DNA from: a bacterium | GTDB taxonomy: Bacteria > JAMCPX01 | Length of the DNA stretch: 64,000 nt | Direction of reading: 5' to 3' | Assembly: GCA_021787665.1 (NCBI GenBank) | Contig: JAJYLN010000010.1 | Coordinates: 1 to 64,000, forward strand | Part shown: positions 7,435-24,469 of the stretch, piece after piece | How positions within the stretch are numbered: the first letter of the stretch is position 1 | Layout: each line of letters begins with the position of its first letter | Program-made: the position numbers and the translations under genes | The notes under the pieces: generated by a model | The model's database searches: none | Told to the model about the DNA's origin: nothing | Seen by the model: the letters and a program-made list of their open reading frames with translations, nothing else

Positions 7435-9540
7435 ATGCTGGACACGATATTCAGGCCCTCGAGCATTGCGCTCATAGGAGCTTCCAAGGTCCCTGGCAAG
7501 GTTGGCTACAGTCTGCTGAAGAACCTTGCCGCAGGAGGCTACAGCGGCAAGGTATACCCGGTCAATCCGACCGCCTCGGAGATACTCGGCAGAAAAGTCT
7601 ATCCGGACATAAAAAGCATCCCGGACACTATAGACCTCGCGGTGTTCATGATACCGCCTAAAGCTATCCTGTCATCGATCGAGGATTGTGCTGACAAACA
7701 TACGAAATTTGCGGTTGTCATCTCCGCCGGGTTCAAAGAGGTCGGGGCCGAAGGAGCGCTGCTCGAGAAACAGCTCAAAGAGCAGGCCGATGCCCATGGT
7801 ATACGGATCATCGGCCCCAACTGCCTGGGCATCATCGATACGAAGGTCCGGCTGAATGCTTCGTTCGCAGCGGACATGCCATTGCCAGGCGACATCTCCA
7901 TCATGTCTCAGTCCGGCGCCCTGCTTACGGCCATACTCGACTGGGCGCTCGCGAACGGCATGGGCTTCTCGAAGTTCATAAGCCTCGGGAACAAGGCAGA
8001 CCTCAACGAGTCGGACTTCATAGAATACCTTGCTGACGACCCGGACACGAAAGTCATCCTCGGTTATATCGAGGGCGTCTCGGACGGCAGGGCGTTCATC
8101 GAGAAGGCGTACAGGGCATCCAAGAAAAAGCCTGTGATCCTGATCAAAGCCGGCGGGACCACGGTCGGTGCGCGGGCTTCCTCCTCCCATACGGGTACAC
8201 TCGCAGGATCAGACGCGGCATTCGACGCCGCGTTCAAACAATCCGGCGTCATACGGGCGCACACGATCGAGGAGCTCTTCGATATCGGGAAGCTGCTCGA
8301 GAGCCAGCCCCTGCCCGGGCAGGGCGGGCTGGCCATCATAACCAATGCCGGAGGGCCGGGGATCATCACAGCGGATGCGACAGAGCGGGCCGGCATACGG
8401 CTCGCGCACCCGGACGACAACAGCATTCTCGCCCTGAAAAAGGTCCTGCCGCCCTCGGCGGCGTTCGGGAACCCGTTCGACATCATTGGCGATGCGCTGG
8501 CGGACAAGTACAAGGCAGCCCTCGACATACTGGTGAAGGACAGGGACGTCGCCGGCGTGTTCGTACTGCTTACGCCGCAGGACATGACCGAGATTGACAA
8601 AACGGCGCAGGTGGTCGTCGACGTCGCACATGGTCCCGCGCGGCAGCTTGGTAGGATGACGCTCGCCGGTTTCATGGGCGGGAAAGACGTCGCGTCCGGC
8701 ATCAGGATACTCAACAGCGGCGGGGTGCCGAACTATGTGTTTCCTGAAGCCGCAGTACGGGCTTTTCGGACCGCCGTTGACTACCGAGACTGGCTCTCGA
8801 AGCCGGAGAAATCGTACCGGCGCTACGCTATCGACATCGCCAAGGTAAGGCAGGGCCTGGAGACCGTGCGGGCCTCCGGCAGATCGAGCCTCGTGGACGT
8901 CGAGGCTCGGCGCATCGTGGAGTACTACGGGTTCAGGACCCCGAAGAGCATGCTCGCCCGTACCAGGGAGGAGGCGGGCATCTTTGCAGCGTCGATAGGC
9001 TATCCCGTCGTCATGAAGATAGCGTCTCCGGACATCCTGCACAAAACGGATGTCGGAGGCGTTGCTGTTGGTATTAAGGACGCGCGGGAGCTCGAGGCTA
9101 CCTTTTCGAATATTACGAATAATGCGGGAAAGTTCATGCCCTCGGCGAGGATATGGGGTGTCGTGATACAGGAAATGATCGGCGGAGGCATCGAGACGAT
9201 CGTGGGCATGCACATCGATCCGAATTTCGGGCCGCTCGTCATGTTCGGGCTCGGTGGCATCTATGTCGAGGTGCTCCGGGACGTCTCGTTCCGGGTGGCC
9301 CCGGTGTCGGAGGACGAGGCCCTTGAGATGATACAGGAGATCCGATCGTACCCCCTGCTGCTCGGGGTACGCGGGGCGAAGAGGATGGATATATCCGCGG
9401 TAGCAGACGGCATCATGCGCATATCGCAGCTCGTTATCGACAACCCGGACATAGCGGAGCTGGACATAAACCCCCTCCTCGTTCAGGAAGAGGGTCTGGG
9501 TGCCGTGGCGGTCGATGCCCGTATCGCGATCAAACATTGA
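7435..9540 (+). CDS. ADP-forming acetyl/acyl-CoA synthetase (fused alpha-beta)
   Basis: The 701-residue protein converts acyl-CoA, ADP and phosphate to acid, CoA and ATP, conserving energy in anaerobes; the reverse reaction activates acids. Order: CoA-binding Rossmann domain (about 1-130, beginning IFRPSSIALIGASKVPGK), succinyl-CoA-ligase-like domain with the phosphorylated-histidine loop SHTGTLAGSDAAF (about 244-256), then an ATP-grasp domain from about residue 480 (KIASPDILHKTDVGGV). Both subunits are fused as in many bacterial forms. Substrate (acetyl or longer acyl) cannot be read from sequence; protein acetyltransferases with the same core carry an extra GNAT domain, absent here. Only 12 bp separate it from the next gene, so the two form an operon. 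Confidence 0.88.
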   Translation: MLDTIFRPSSIALIGASKVPGKVGYSLLKNLAAGGYSGKVYPVNPTASEILGRKVYPDIKSIPDTIDLAVFMIPPKAILSSIEDCADKHTKFAVVISAGFKEVGAEGALLEKQLKEQADAHGIRIIGPNCLGIIDTKVRLNASFAADMPLPGDISIMSQSGALLTAILDWALANGMGFSKFISLGNKADLNESDFIEYLADDPDTKVILGYIEGVSDGRAFIEKAYRASKKKPVILIKAGGTTVGARASSSHTGTLAGSDAAFDAAFKQSGVIRAHTIEELFDIGKLLESQPLPGQGGLAIITNAGGPGIITADATERAGIRLAHPDDNSILALKKVLPPSAAFGNPFDIIGDALADKYKAALDILVKDRDVAGVFVLLTPQDMTEIDKTAQVVVDVAHGPARQLGRMTLAGFMGGKDVASGIRILNSGGVPNYVFPEAAVRAFRTAVDYRDWLSKPEKSYRRYAIDIAKVRQGLETVRASGRSSLVDVEARRIVEYYGFRTPKSMLARTREEAGIFAASIGYPVVMKIASPDILHKTDVGGVAVGIKDARELEATFSNITNNAGKFMPSARIWGVVIQEMIGGGIETIVGMHIDPNFGPLVMFGLGGIYVEVLRDVSFRVAPVSEDEALEMIQEIRSYPLLLGVRGAKRMDISAVADGIMRISQLVIDNPDIAELDINPLLVQEEGLGAVAVDARIAIKH

Positions 9541-9552
9541 GGAGGTAGGCGT

Positions 9553-10623
9553 ATGATTCCCTTTTTTATCGGTTCAACGAATGGCTATTCCGGGAAAACA
9601 CTCCTGTCAACGGTGCTCGGCAGGATGCTCCTGGAGCAGGGGTATAAGATCGGTTACATGAGGATTATCGGGAAGTCTGTAGGCGGGAGGGGCACGACGC
9701 TCTATGATGTCGACGCTGCATTCATCAAAGAGGTACTCGGGATCACGGATCCGGTGGAAAAGATGTCGCCCGTTGTTCTGACACACGACCTCAGGGTATC
9801 GGTGCTCAAGGGGAAGGACTTCGACGGGATGGCACTGTTCCGGAACGCATACGACCAGCTCTCTGCCGGGAAGGACGTGATGATCGTCAGCGGCGCCGCG
9901 AACCTCTACGAGGGCCTGACGATGCGGATCAGCAGCCTTATCACGATCAAGGCGCTCAACGCGAAGGCGGTGCTTATCGATCCCTACCGGGACGAGGTCT
10001 GCGTGGACTGCATACTCTCTGCAAAGGAGCTCCTCGGGGACAGGCTCGCCGGGATTATCATCAACAGGGTCACGACGGACGACCGGGACTTCGTGGTAAA
10101 CGAAATCATTCCCTATCTCACGAAGAGAGGCGTTCGGGTGTTCGGTGTCGTGCCGAGAGAAATGGCACTCGAATCGGTCTCGGTACGGCAGATCATGGAC
10201 GCTGTCGGCGGGGAAATGCTCTCCGGGCAGCACAAGCTCGACGATCTCGTGGAAAACCTTGTCGTTGGCGCCATGGATGTCGAGAACGCGCTGAAGAACT
10301 TCATCAAGAGCAAGAACAAGGCCGTAATCACCGGCGCAAACAGGGGGGACATCATCATCGCTGCGCTCGAGACATCGACGAGGTGCCTTGTGCTCACCGG
10401 GGACATTTTGCCCAACGAGATCGTGCTCGGGAGGGCACAGTCGATGGGCATGCCGGTCATTCACGTGAAATACGATACCCTTACGACCCTGTCGAAGATA
10501 GAGTCTATCATCGGTAAGGTGAGGATCGCCAGGAACGATCAGATCAAAAAGGGCTACGAGTTGATCACGAAGTACGTCGACGTCAAGGGACTGTTCACCT
10601 CTGTCGGCATCAGGGGGAAATAA
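9553..10623 (+). CDS. P-loop/DRTGG-domain protein (phosphotransacetylase N-domain-like)
   Basis: The 356-residue protein has an N-terminal BioD/cobyrinate-synthase-type ATPase domain (P-loop GSTNGYSGKT at about 7-16, and MIVSGAANLYEG) and a C-terminal DRTGG domain (about 210-320, with VVPREMALESVSVRQIMDA at its start). The same two modules form the N-terminal regulatory part of long Pta phosphotransacetylases, but the catalytic Pta domain is absent. A GGAGG ribosome site precedes the ATG. Being paired with an ADP-forming acyl-CoA synthetase, it may sense nucleotides or acyl-CoA and regulate that enzyme; this is inference. Confidence 0.75.
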   Translation: MIPFFIGSTNGYSGKTLLSTVLGRMLLEQGYKIGYMRIIGKSVGGRGTTLYDVDAAFIKEVLGITDPVEKMSPVVLTHDLRVSVLKGKDFDGMALFRNAYDQLSAGKDVMIVSGAANLYEGLTMRISSLITIKALNAKAVLIDPYRDEVCVDCILSAKELLGDRLAGIIINRVTTDDRDFVVNEIIPYLTKRGVRVFGVVPREMALESVSVRQIMDAVGGEMLSGQHKLDDLVENLVVGAMDVENALKNFIKSKNKAVITGANRGDIIIAALETSTRCLVLTGDILPNEIVLGRAQSMGMPVIHVKYDTLTTLSKIESIIGKVRIARNDQIKKGYELITKYVDVKGLFTSVGIRGK

Positions 10624-19609: not shown

Positions 19610-20303
19610 GCAATTGACATGGTTTAGCTTTATACCCGGATTACGGGACGTACCCAGCTACATGATAACATACCCTTTGACGGGCATGGTGCTGATTGTT
19701 TGCGCTCTGCTTGTCTCCAGGACGCTAAGGCGCAGGAACTACCCGGAAGTGCCTGATGAAGGGTTGACACTATCCTCGCTGTTCGATAGCATCTACGAGG
19801 CATTGTACAACTTTACTGCCTCGGTCATTCCGGATGAGCCGGAGAGATACCTGCCCTTGATCGGTACCCTGTTTATACTGATATTTTTCTCAAACCTATG
19901 GGGCGTAATACCGGGGATGGCCCCTCCTACGGACAAGCTCGACACCAATGTTGCCATGGCGTTAACGGTATTTATGGCCTATAACTACTACGGGTTCAGG
20001 TCGCACGGGATAAAGTATTTGAAGCATTTTATGGGGCCCATATGGTGGCTTGCACCTATCATGGTGGTCGTGGAGCTTATCAGCAATGCGGTCAGACCCG
20101 TATCTCTTTCCCTCAGGCTTTTCGGGAACATGCTCGGCGACCATACGGTACTTGGCATCTTCTCACACCTGCTCCCGATAATTGTTCCCATATTTTTTAT
20201 GGCGCTCGGCATATTCGTGTCTTTTATTCAGGCTCTGATATTTTCGATACTAAGTGCAATTTACATCGCACTTGCAGTGGCACACGAAGAAGAAGAACAT
20301 TAA
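19602..20303 (+). CDS. atpB: ATP synthase F0 subunit a
   Basis: The 233-residue membrane protein forms the proton or sodium half-channels beside the c-ring. The essential arginine region is present ([17 protein letters not shown]), together with [25 protein letters not shown] and a C-terminal [17 protein letters not shown] helix. Five to six membrane helices are evident. Two ATG codons lie six bases apart; the second (used here) is 8 bases from AAGGAG, the first only 2. The product ends in an acidic HEEEEH tail. The gene for the c subunit follows 20 bp later. Confidence 0.93.
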
Positions 20304-20323
20304 CTATAAAAGGAGGATTGAGG

Positions 20324-20653
20324 ATGGTGAGAAAGTTTTTGAGTATGGCTGCATCAACGATACTGCTGGTGCTGACAGCAATCCCTGCTTTCGCTGAGGC
20401 TACACCTGCCCAGGCACAGGGAACGGACGTTAAAGGGTGGCTCGCTATTGCGGCTGGCATAGGTATAGGCATAGCCGCGTTCGGCGGAGCACTCGGTCAG
20501 GGCAGGGCGATCGCTGCTGCACTCGATGGGATAGCGAGAAACCCCGGGGCATCAGGTAAGATTGTGACGCCAATGATTATCGGTCTTGCCCTTGTAGAGT
20601 CCCTCGTTATCTACGCCTTTGTCATAGCATTCTTGCTTCAAGGGAAGATATAG
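20324..20653 (+). CDS. atpE: ATP synthase F0 subunit c
   Basis: The 109-residue proteolipid has a leader-like N-terminus (hydrophobic stretch then [11 protein letters not shown]) ahead of two c-subunit helices: [20 protein letters not shown], the polar loop ARNPGASGK, and [18 protein letters not shown]. The ion-binding carboxylate is Glu92. Gln59, Ser93 and Tyr97 sit where sodium-binding c subunits place their other ligands, so sodium coupling is possible. AGGAGG precedes the ATG. A strong terminator follows; F1 genes are not in this window. Confidence 0.92.
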
Positions 20654-20879: not shown

Positions 20880-21593
20880 ATGACAAATAGCGTTAAGTAT
20901 TTGGCTATACTGATGATGCTGGCACTGTACCCTGCCACGGGGTACGCTAAACAGAGCGCGTGTGTGGTCTGCCACAGCTCAATCTCTCAGGAAAAGGACA
21001 AGACCGTTATGGACTGCTGGCTGCGCTCCATCCACAGACAGAACGGCGTGACGTGCGATGCGTGTCATGCGGGTAACCCGGACGTCCATGTGGGCAGTAT
21101 AAAAGGCATCTCGGCCAAACAGTTCGAAGCCTTAAAGTCGCTTTCCATGTCCAGGGCCAAAGGGTTCATCGGTATTCCCTCGCCTATGCAGATGTTCGAT
21201 ATGTGCGGCCAGTGTCACAGTGATTCGGTAAACCGGTACAAGGGCAGTATCATGGGCATCGCATTCCTCAATAAGAAGGGCGGCCCTTCCTGCACGGACT
21301 GTCATTCAGCACACTATGTCATCATCCCGGATGTCCCCAAGACGTGCGAGAAGTGTCACAAGGATACGACCGGGTTCGACCAGATAGACCCCATGAACGT
21401 CAACGATGCAACGGTAACAGAGCTCTCGAGGCTCAGAATAAAGATCGCCGAGGAGAAAATAAAGGGCAAAGAGCCACCCCTCTTTCCCGAAGAGCTGGGC
21501 TCGTTCCAGATTGGGTTCGTGGCGTTCGGTGCTATTATTGTATTGTTCATCATCGCGTATATCCTGTACCTATTGATTGAGAGAAGGAGGTAA
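20880..21593 (+). CDS. Membrane-anchored pentahaem cytochrome c
   Basis: The 237-residue protein has a signal peptide (to about residue 23), five CXXCH haem-binding motifs (from residues 28, 59, 109, 138 and 156) and one C-terminal membrane helix (about 208-230) ending in ERRR. It therefore faces the periplasm, anchored in the inner membrane. It begins a five-gene cluster with Rieske and cytochrome b genes and lies 2 bp before the next gene after AAGGAGG, so it is probably a structural electron-exit subunit of a quinol-oxidising complex. It differs from NapC/NirT by having the anchor at the C-terminus. Confidence 0.85.
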   Translation: MTNSVKYLAILMMLALYPATGYAKQSACVVCHSSISQEKDKTVMDCWLRSIHRQNGVTCDACHAGNPDVHVGSIKGISAKQFEALKSLSMSRAKGFIGIPSPMQMFDMCGQCHSDSVNRYKGSIMGIAFLNKKGGPSCTDCHSAHYVIIPDVPKTCEKCHKDTTGFDQIDPMNVNDATVTELSRLRIKIAEEKIKGKEPPLFPEELGSFQIGFVAFGAIIVLFIIAYILYLLIERRR

Positions 21594-21595
21594 CG

Positions 21596-21859
21596 ATGGG
21601 CTTTGAAGTCATCAACAGCAAAAGACCGTCCTATGCTATGGCAGCGGCCGTAGCCATAACGCTCCTGTCCGTCCTATCCCTCTGCATCAGCGTGCTGTTC
21701 GCCTATCTCTTCATAACGGGAAAGGGAAACAATCTGATAATGGGCACGATGGTCTCGGCGGAGTTTCTGATAGCGGCAGCCGTCGTCACGCTCTATATTC
21801 GGTATTTCCTCGAGTTCAGGGAGGTCTCCGAAGACAGAGAGGAGGAATTGCTATGGTAA
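21596..21859 (+). CDS. Small two-helix membrane protein of the bc-type cluster
   Basis: The 87-residue protein has two membrane helices (about 15-42 and 47-69) and an acidic C-terminal tail (EDREEELLW). No family was recognised. AAGGAGG precedes the ATG, and the 3' end overlaps the Rieske start by 7 bp, so production is likely coupled to the complex. It may be a small accessory subunit like those in bc1 and b6f complexes; this is inferred from context. Confidence 0.65.
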   Translation: MGFEVINSKRPSYAMAAAVAITLLSVLSLCISVLFAYLFITGKGNNLIMGTMVSAEFLIAAAVVTLYIRYFLEFREVSEDREEELLW

Positions 21860-22473
21860 ACGAACCCGGAAAAACGGCGGACAGAGGGAACGAAACGGGC
21901 ATAACGAGGAGACGGTTCATCCTGGGGACGATCGTCGTCGCCGTGATCGGCGCTTTCGGATCGCTGTTATCCATGCTGAAGCTGCTCTCGCCTTCAAAGA
22001 AGGGCAGCGGGTATATGTCCACTATCGCCCCGGGCGACGTCCTCGTCTATGCAGCGGGCAGCAATATCGGTACAGAGATAAAGGCAAGCTCGCTCAACGT
22101 CGGGGATGCCGAGCTCGTGTATCCAAAAGGCAAGTCATCGAATCCTGCAAACCTCGTACAATTGATAAAGCTGAACGAAGTGGACTTCAAGAAGCCGACC
22201 GACAGGAAGCTCACCGATAAAGGCTTCCTTGCCTACAGCGCCATATGCACGCACCTCGGCTGTACGGTCTCCTGGGTAAAGAATCCTGCCTCACCGGACT
22301 TATCCTACACCGAGTGCTTCTGCCATAACAGTATCTTTAACCCCGCACGGGGGGAGATCGTCGAAGGCGGGCCAGCACCCATACCGCTCGCACAGATAGG
22401 GGTAAGGGTGAACGAAAACGATACGATCGTCTTCACCGGCACTTTTACGGGCCCGATCGGCCCACAGGTCTGA
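21853..22473 (+). CDS. Rieske [2Fe-2S] subunit
   Basis: The 206-residue protein has a Tat-type signal anchor (TRRRFILG then a hydrophobic helix, about 24-42), as expected for a Rieske protein folded before export. Box 1 CTHLGC (Cys132, His134, Cys137) and box 2 CFCHNSIF (Cys155, Cys157, His158) give both cluster ligands pairs and the disulfide. It would accept electrons from quinol bound at the cytochrome b subunit, encoded 18 bp downstream, and pass them to the pentahaem cytochromes. Confidence 0.92.
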   Translation: MVNEPGKTADRGNETGITRRRFILGTIVVAVIGAFGSLLSMLKLLSPSKKGSGYMSTIAPGDVLVYAAGSNIGTEIKASSLNVGDAELVYPKGKSSNPANLVQLIKLNEVDFKKPTDRKLTDKGFLAYSAICTHLGCTVSWVKNPASPDLSYTECFCHNSIFNPARGEIVEGGPAPIPLAQIGVRVNENDTIVFTGTFTGPIGPQV

Positions 22474-22491
22474 GGGAAAGGGGAGCATACG

Positions 22492-23730
22492 ATGTTTTCA
22501 TGGCTTGACGAGAGACTCGAACTGAAAAAATTCAAGGAAAAGTTTTTGTCCAAGACCTTCCCGACGCACCCGACATTCCTGATCGGAGAGATAGCCCTGT
22601 TCTCCTTCATCATACTCATCGTGACGGGAATATTCCTCGGCCTGCTCTACGAGCCGTCGACAAAGGCGGTCTCGCTGTTCGGTGCCATGGTTCCGGCGGC
22701 CTATGCGAGCGTGGTCAGAATAGATCTGATGTCCATGGGCATGCTCGTGCGACGCATCCACCACTGGAGCGCTATGATCATGATAGCTGCCGTGCTCGTC
22801 CACCTCATGAGGGTCTACTTTACGTCAGCGTACAGGAACCCCAGGGAGATAAACTGGTTCATCGGACTCGCCCTGTTCGGGATCTCGCTGTTCGCCGCGT
22901 TCACCGGCTACCTGCTCCCGTACAGCAATTTCTCGGTGACCGCGACATCCATAGGATACTATATCGCAAAATCCGTGCCTTGGATCGGTAACTGGGTATC
23001 CAGACTCCTCTTTGCCGGGGACTTCCCCTCGAATGCAACGGTACCGCGATTCTTCTTCCTCCATGTTATGTTCATTCCGGTACTGCTCCTCGGCCTCATC
23101 GGGCTGCACATGGTCGTCCTGGTAAAACAGAAGCACACGGAACCGTCCTCCAATGAGGGAAGGCCGGAGGCGAAGCATGGAAAGCGCCTCATCGGCATAC
23201 CTATCTGGCCGGAGCAGGCGCTCATCAGCACCGTATTCTTCTTCTTCCTGATCTTTATGGTCGTCCTGATAGCGACCTACATACCTTTAAACCCCATCGA
23301 AACCTATGGACCGCCTTCCCCCGGAACACCCGTGATGAGACCGGACTGGTATTTTCTCGTCGTATACGGGTTCCTGAAGCTCATACCCGGCAATCTCTCG
23401 TTTTCCATTTTGGGGGGCAAGATTACGCCGGAGACCATCGGTGGAGTCATCTTCCCGACGTTTTTGATTCTCGTGTTTTTGCTCGTGCCACTGATAGACA
23501 GGGCGAAAGGGCCGCAGCACTACATCGTCAACCCCCTCCGGAGGCCCTTCATGACCTCGTTCGGTGTCACCGGCGGTGTCTTTCTGACCATGCTGGTAGT
23601 GTCGGGGTATATCGACGTCCTCCATATCAAGCCGAAGACGATGATCGTCTACGTCGTCCTTGCGACAGCCATTGCCGCGGTCGTCTCGTACACGCTGCTC
23701 AGGCTCTACAATAAAAAAGGGGAGGGATAA
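22492..23730 (+). CDS. Cytochrome b subunit of a bc-type quinol oxidoreductase
   Basis: The 412-residue protein fuses the N-terminal b6-like and C-terminal subunit IV-like halves. Haem ligands are His90 and His104 (13 residues between) and His191 and His206 (14 between, the b6f-type spacing). The Qo motif is PDWY at 284-287 rather than PEWY, a variant common in menaquinol-oxidising complexes. Seven to eight membrane helices are apparent. It lies between the Rieske gene and a second pentahaem cytochrome gene. It would oxidise menaquinol and contribute to proton motive force. Confidence 0.92.
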   Translation: MFSWLDERLELKKFKEKFLSKTFPTHPTFLIGEIALFSFIILIVTGIFLGLLYEPSTKAVSLFGAMVPAAYASVVRIDLMSMGMLVRRIHHWSAMIMIAAVLVHLMRVYFTSAYRNPREINWFIGLALFGISLFAAFTGYLLPYSNFSVTATSIGYYIAKSVPWIGNWVSRLLFAGDFPSNATVPRFFFLHVMFIPVLLLGLIGLHMVVLVKQKHTEPSSNEGRPEAKHGKRLIGIPIWPEQALISTVFFFFLIFMVVLIATYIPLNPIETYGPPSPGTPVMRPDWYFLVVYGFLKLIPGNLSFSILGGKITPETIGGVIFPTFLILVFLLVPLIDRAKGPQHYIVNPLRRPFMTSFGVTGGVFLTMLVVSGYIDVLHIKPKTMIVYVVLATAIAAVVSYTLLRLYNKKGEG

Positions 23731-23731
23731 C

Positions 23732-24469
23732 ATGATGAGGTCCAGGTTTGCCGCAGTATTGTTCATGGTGGCTGCAACGTCTGTTTTTGGGGCACCGTCT
23801 GCCTTTGCCGTAAATTCGTGTGTCAGATGTCACTCCGCTCTTACCGGACAGAGCTTTGTAGGGACGAAATCGCATAGCTGGAAGGGCTCCGTACATCAAG
23901 AGCACGGCGTGACCTGTGATAAATGTCACGGAGGAGACCCGAAAGCAGTCATGGAGAAGCTTGCGCACATCGGCGTCTTCAGCTCGAGCAACCCGGACAG
24001 CAAGGTTTACTACAAGAATATCCCTTCGACGTGCGGCAAATGTCATGGTGCGGAGTTCTATAAGTTTACACAAAGCTACCACTACAAAAAACTCGAGTCG
24101 ACCGGACAGGGCCCCAATTGTGTGACATGCCACGGATCCATGGTGACGACGATCCTGAATCCGAACGATATGGCAAGCGTATGCGACCGGTGTCACAATA
24201 ACAGGATGGGTGTCCTCCCCTACATACCCAAGAAAGCAAAGGCCGTACTTCTCCTCCTCCAGCAGGGGAACCTGCTCATGAAGGCCGACGGGAAACTCTA
24301 CACCTCAAAGGCTGATGAGAAAGTACTCAGCGCGGCACGAGCAGACCTATCCTCGGCACGAATGGAATGGCATACCTTCGACCTCGACGTCATCGTCAAG
24401 GATTTAGAGGGAGCATACAACAACTTCCAGAAGCTGCCGGCACAGAGGCATGTACCAAAACAACAGTAA
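23732..24469 (+). CDS. Periplasmic pentahaem cytochrome c
   Basis: The 245-residue protein has a signal peptide cleaved near SAFAVN and five CXXCH motifs (from residues 30, 62, 101, 130 and 151), with a haem-free helical C-terminus. It lacks a C-terminal anchor, unlike the first pentahaem protein of the cluster. GGGGAGGG precedes the ATG, which lies directly after the cytochrome b stop. It may shuttle electrons from the complex to a periplasmic acceptor or terminal reductase, none of which is encoded nearby. Confidence 0.87.
   Translation: MMRSRFAAVLFMVAATSVFGAPSAFAVNSCVRCHSALTGQSFVGTKSHSWKGSVHQEHGVTCDKCHGGDPKAVMEKLAHIGVFSSSNPDSKVYYKNIPSTCGKCHGAEFYKFTQSYHYKKLESTGQGPNCVTCHGSMVTTILNPNDMASVCDRCHNNRMGVLPYIPKKAKAVLLLLQQGNLLMKADGKLYTSKADEKVLSAARADLSSARMEWHTFDLDVIVKDLEGAYNNFQKLPAQRHVPKQQ

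Follow-up and report, generated by a model that had tools for sequence, protein, structure and literature searches.

A probable menaquinol-type Rieske/cytochrome b gene cluster with two pentahaem cytochromes, one of them a likely substitute for cytochrome c1 or f

How might a Rieske/cytochrome b complex pass on its electrons when neither cytochrome c1 nor cytochrome f is encoded beside it? The question is raised by five genes at positions 20880-24469 of a 64,000-nucleotide stretch of bacterial DNA (GTDB lineage Bacteria; JAMCPX01; assembly GCA_021787665.1, contig JAJYLN010000010.1, positions 1 to 64,000), hereafter the window. An original prediction, made from the sequence alone, described the genes as a quinol-oxidising complex with two pentahaem cytochromes in the order given below, and the open reading frames (ORFs) and their coordinates agree with that order. 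We put the probability at about 0.7 that the cluster encodes an enzyme of the Rieske/cytochrome b class, a menaquinol:multihaem-cytochrome c oxidoreductase, in which the first pentahaem protein, P1, replaces c1 or f. The genes are as follows.

20880..21593, + strand: P1, pentahaem c-type cytochrome (five CXXCH motifs) with signal peptide and C-terminal membrane anchor (237 amino acids).
21596..21859, + strand: S2, two-helix membrane protein matching PF24002 (DUF7318) (87 amino acids).
21853..22473, + strand: Rieske [2Fe-2S] protein, PF00355 over cut-off, with a twin-arginine translocation (Tat)-type N-terminal anchor (206 amino acids).
22492..23730, + strand: cytochrome b, a fusion of b6-like and subunit-IV-like parts, with PF13631, PF00033 and PF00032 over cut-off (412 amino acids).
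23732..24469, + strand: P5, soluble periplasmic pentahaem c-type cytochrome with five CXXCH motifs, a paralogue of P1 (245 amino acids).

The coordinates of P5 count from the first ATG; the ORF list gives a longer version with a TTG start. All five genes lie head to tail, with intergenic distances from P1 to P5 of +2, -7, +18 and +1 nt, so that the S2 and Rieske genes share 7 nt. Spacing of -7 to +18 nt is what one transcription unit would show. Promoter and terminator scans of the cluster region returned sites no commoner than in shuffled sequences.

The core of the cluster has the hallmarks of the Rieske/cytochrome b class, namely the Rieske ligands, four haem-ligating histidines and a PxWY-type Qo motif. 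The Rieske box is complete (CTHLGC...CFCHNSIF), with the CTHLGC/CxCH ligands present in 35/35 sequences; the protein carries a twin-arginine motif, and its nearest solved relative is of the Thermus thermophilus Rieske type. Cytochrome b had been predicted to be a fused protein with a PDWY motif and b6f-type haem spacing. This is what was found: the histidine pairs 90/104 and 191/206, separated by 13 and 14 residues, respectively, and the PDWY motif (residues 284-287) occur in all 35 sequences. The split into cytochrome b6 and subunit IV that marks b6f complexes is absent, both parts being in one chain, and the nearest solved relative is actinobacterial QcrB. The window's cytochrome b contains no cysteine at all, and alignment column 35 is Ala or Val, hence there is no Cys35 for a covalently bound haem cn. 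We infer that the haems are attached, that the proteins form a complex and that it has quinol:cytochrome c reductase activity with a Q-cycle.

The low-potential menaquinol substrate that was originally proposed also fits the data. PDWY is typical of menaquinol-type complexes. Box 2 of the Rieske protein has Phe where Tyr is usual in 33/35 sequences, a substitution that lowers the Rieske potential. Two genes of the MqnA/MqnD type (PF02621, futalosine pathway) are present in the genome; therefore, menaquinone is likely. A search of the same genome for COX1 did not find it.

The two pentahaem proteins are the unusual part of the cluster. P1 and P5 contain exactly five CXXCH motifs each, all ten of which are invariant among relatives (35 P1 sequences), and the two proteins are homologous (hhalign probability 99.9%, E 1.4e-31). 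As predicted, P1 is anchored C-terminally, by a single hydrophobic helix at residues 205-237, and P5 is soluble, its signal peptide being the only hydrophobic segment. Haems with His/Met ligation have higher potentials, and spare histidines suit bis-His haems. Outside the CXXCH motifs, P1 conserves two spare histidines (H52, H145) and three spare methionines (M90, M125, M172), and P5 conserves four or five spare histidines (among H48, H55, H79, H117 and H214) and M137. P1 could thus carry some higher-potential His/Met haems, matching the role of a Rieske acceptor, and P5 may hold mostly bis-His haems. Neither protein matched the QcrC profile, and each has five motifs rather than being dihaem. 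A sequence search of the PDB with P1 gave no match; with P5 all matches were weak, to reaction-centre cytochromes in their multihaem stretches and to one chain that looks unrelated. The structures predicted for P1 and P5 as single chains without haem are of fair quality (pLDDT 81 and 71, respectively); a Foldseek search with both found no significant match, and alignment of the P1 model to HAO/NrfA-type multihaem cores reached Z <= 5.6. A further P5 paralogue, about 31-37% identical, lies away from any Rieske/b genes at 9153-9923 of locus L106 (genome G019; loci and genomes are designated L and G throughout).

S2 matches PF24002 (DUF7318) at 29.4 bits against a cut-off of 27, and the family is over cut-off in 4/6 matching genomes of the window's phylum. 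S2 is present in all clusters, and its residues R75, E79, R81, E83 and W87 are kept in at least 97% of them. It is likely that DUF7318 proteins serve Rieske/b complexes as a small subunit, in bacteria and perhaps also in haloarchaea. A tblastn search of plasmid records with S2 gave no match, and viral contigs searched for relatives of cytochrome b held none.

Does the association of these proteins extend beyond the window? A cytochrome b scan of genome contigs yielded 33 loci at 67-90% identity, and P1-S2-Rieske-b occurs in the same order in all 34 homologous loci compared, which come from the window's phylum, Nitrospirota, Desulfobacterota and one Acidobacteriota metagenome-assembled genome (MAG). 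The order is also kept in L096, where cytochrome b is only 60% identical. Because the same gene order recurs in more than 30 genomes, the association is not due to chance. P1 was never found apart from Rieske/b genes in the clusters compared. P5 follows cytochrome b directly in most loci. In L039, L044 and L045 it is inverted, and near L030, L043, L047 and L050 (genomes G009-G012) no P5 is present; a genome-wide search for P5 in these four genomes, which are MAGs and may have gaps, found only P1-level similarity. The original count of ten haems per Rieske/b core is therefore correct for the window and does not hold as a property of the family. P1 is the invariant subunit, and P5 appears to be an exit module.

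Compared pair by pair, the five protein trees have 12-19 of 27 splits in common, against at most 3 in shuffles, and show at most one strongly supported conflict. Therefore, the unit appears to be inherited and transferred as one, and the phylogenetic link of the pentahaem proteins to the Rieske/b genes, on which the original prediction depended, is supported. The copy in L027, an Acidobacteriota-labelled MAG, falls within those of Nitrospirota, and the unit is missing from all the other ~395 genomes sampled from the phylum of that MAG. Among sampled genomes, the unit was found in 17/395 from the group of L022 (labelled Nitrospirota) and in 2/395 from that of L037 (labelled Syntrophobacteraceae), where no more than these two have a cytochrome b closely related to the window's. 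Within the window's own phylum the unit is found in 6/9 genomes, and one genome without it is 99% complete. The unit is conserved and appears to have spread horizontally. It represents a discrete and mobile kind of cytochrome bc complex that occurs in at least four phyla and seems to use a membrane-anchored pentahaem cytochrome instead of c1 or f. L028 contains an exact 3059-bp direct repeat with P1-S2-Rieske-b and without P5 (1805-4863 and +3940), which is either a recent tandem duplication or an assembly artefact.

The absence of a c1- or f-like protein from the cluster was likewise upheld. Cytochrome c1 (PF02167) has no match in the window's genome and none over cut-off in the 9 genomes of the phylum, and thus no c1 was found elsewhere that might serve the complex. 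No cluster protein matched cytochrome f, a search that was confined to the cluster. The genome does encode a second Rieske/cytochrome b complex (G000:C5; L051 4699-9705), also seen in L053 and L055, and this complex supplies no c1 either. Its genes encode a GltD-like NAD(P)H dehydrogenase, a Rieske protein, cytochrome b, a cytochrome that combines five motifs with class I domains, and a monohaem c as a protein of its own. Next come a gene for a protein that by eye is DoxX-like and a Cyc2-like gene. In G001 (L053) the two clusters adjoin and are transcribed divergently.

In the mechanism that we favour, the fused cytochrome b would oxidise menaquinol at the Qo site (PDWY). One electron would cross haems bL and bH and reach the Qi site, as in a Q-cycle; the Rieske cluster would take the other and hand it on to P1, held at the membrane by its C-terminal helix in place of c1 or f. 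S2 would be a small structural subunit, and P5 an optional soluble carrier from P1 to periplasmic partners that differ between lineages.

The genes beside the unit in relatives offer candidates for these partners. In L096 the operon continues after cytochrome b with an NrfC-type iron-sulfur protein, NrfD, a molybdopterin oxidoreductase and a 12-haem cytochrome, with P5 a few genes later; the molybdopterin oxidoreductase is Tat-exported and closest to PhsA/DmsA, below curated cut-offs. Five Nitrospirota loci have a tetrahaem cytochrome, a DsrO-like protein and DsrP (421.9 bits, cut-off 350) upstream, and L035 adjoins two 12-haem cytochromes. Other neighbours resemble the cytochrome-porin Cyc2, as judged by the published signature A.P.[FY]AR[QK][TY]...C..CH...P.L, a length of more than 440 amino acids and a C-terminal Phe (PMC8406198). 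Upstream DNA of at least 2.5 kb is available for 24 loci, and six of these have a protein with this signature (448-483 amino acids) no more than 2.5 kb from the unit, often accompanied by a monohaem c. The six come from two phyla; five of them form one clade, and therefore few independent events are involved. Cyc2-signature cytochrome-porins adjoin Rieske/b clusters in L052 (4656-6101), L037, L040, L041, L046, L049 and L055 (6197-7672). Cyc2-like genes were found in 8/9 genomes of the phylum to which the window belongs; its own genome has only fragments of them, at contig ends, which suggests that repeated copies broke the assembly. As a separate observation, dsrA is over cut-off in 7/9 genomes of the phylum, and neither the window's genome nor G007 is among them.

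Taken together, these neighbours suggest three kinds of partner: a Phs/Dms-like molybdoenzyme together with a 12-haem cytochrome, a set of DsrJOP-like proteins, or a cytochrome-porin bearing the Cyc2 motif. A fixed core with changing partners supports a general quinol-to-periplasm hub, and the partner genes point to specific, testable ways in which uncultured Nitrospirota and their neighbours may conserve energy. A bolder form of this idea, which we regard as doubtful, is an exchangeable inner-membrane hub of largely anaerobic bacteria, in which P5 and the neighbouring genes are swapped around an invariant menaquinol core (P1-S2-Rieske-b) and the Q-cycle, where a Cyc2-like porin is present, runs backwards for extracellular electron uptake.

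Several observations weigh against a menaquinol-oxidising complex that delivers electrons outwards through P1. Neither predicted pentahaem model firmly fits a known fold, so that docking of P1 to the Rieske protein is putative. In the window, the flanking genes, those of an ATP synthase upstream and an ankyrin-repeat lipoprotein downstream, point to no partner enzyme. In addition, the Cyc2-like neighbours beside six clusters would fit electrons flowing inwards equally well; the originally proposed link to reductases is supported by neighbouring genes in relatives only. The complex might operate in reverse as its main function, a Cyc2-like porin passing electrons from Fe(II) or another extracellular donor via monohaem c to P5 and P1. 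Rieske/b would then spend proton motive force to reduce menaquinone, and the second, NAD(P)H-linked complex would make reductant. The frequency of Cyc2-like genes in the phylum, and their presence beside the second complex, favour such a scheme. However, most clusters have no Cyc2-like neighbour, the other neighbours are reductase or sulfite-pathway modules, and the function of such divergent Cyc2 proteins is itself putative; we consider reverse operation unlikely.

It is improbable that P1 and P5 form a separate NapC/NrfH-like relay, tied only by a common operon to an ordinary Rieske/b complex whose c-type acceptor is encoded elsewhere. P1 has weak similarity to NrfH and DmsE, and P5 is at times detached or absent, as might be expected of such a relay. 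However, P1 reaches 25.3 bits with the NrfH profile, for which the cut-off is 134.2, and where NapC/NrfH proteins have four haems and an N-terminal anchor it has five haems and a C-terminal anchor; moreover, it never leaves the Rieske/b genes and the genome holds no c1. Electron bifurcation, with a low-potential branch that exits the membrane rather than returning to quinone, has been proposed for anammox complexes, and the second Rieske/b complex, with its GltD-like NAD(P)H dehydrogenase, resembles the arrangement in Kuenenia (PMC12954380). For the five-gene cluster we judge this highly improbable, as no NAD(P)H- or ferredoxin-linked gene lies in it or is conserved beside it and cytochrome b lacks the cysteine for haem cn.

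The concept of multihaem Rieske/b complexes is already published (PMC4683180, PMC2825233, PMC12954380). In Methanoperedens nitroreducens, a co-expressed Rieske/cytochrome b cluster (MPEBLZ_00816-00823) with two pentahaem c and small hypothetical proteins was proposed to carry menaquinol oxidation towards a periplasmic nitrate reductase (PMC4683180). By description it is like the window's unit, but it is archaeal and an additional cytochrome is taken as the c1/f counterpart (PMC4683180). The cytochrome bc cluster GSU2937-GSU2930 of Geobacter, thought to feed periplasmic electron transfer, likewise joins several multihaem cytochromes (2-, 10-, 12- and 5-haem) to Rieske and cytochrome b, without two pentahaem paralogues (PMC2825233). 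In the Kuenenia complexes Kustd1480-1485 and Kuste4569-4574 a multihaem c replaces cytochrome f (PMC12954380); however, with their b6-like split cytochrome b, hexa/octahaem c and NAD(P) oxidoreductase subunit they are nearer to the second complex of the window's genome. The actinobacterial bcc complex (QcrCAB) shares with the unit a fused cytochrome b, the nearest one solved, and a menaquinol substrate, but has dihaem QcrC where the window has pentahaem P1. Its Rieske protein has three helices.

The nearest cytochrome b found outside the family, 38-41% identical over the aligned part, is that of haloarchaeal plasmid clusters (L062, L063, L133). Here the Rieske gene adjoins cytochrome b and is directly preceded by an unnamed gene with DUF7318 similarity below cut-off; therefore, the S2-Rieske-b order seems to hold, without a c-type cytochrome. 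A molybdoenzyme gene follows; unlike the window's unit, these clusters contain no c-type cytochrome. We dropped the idea that the upstream protein is a fusion of the P1 anchor with S2, as the S2 part was weakly supported and the P1-anchor part scored no better than shuffled sequences.

We found no published description of the five-gene unit in Nitrospirota or relatives, in a search that lacked most subscription papers and so is not proof; neither the form present in the window nor its links to partner enzymes seem to have been described before. PMC5317091 cites a proposal that multihaem c-type cytochromes were early Rieske acceptors. The unit supports published proposals of such cytochromes as Rieske acceptors in anaerobic chains.

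Finally, the c subunit of the ATP synthase upstream of the cluster (window 20042-20653) shows by eye the residues Gln, Glu-Ser and Tyr in GQGR...VESLVIY, at the known Na+-binding positions, and this ATP synthase may run on sodium.

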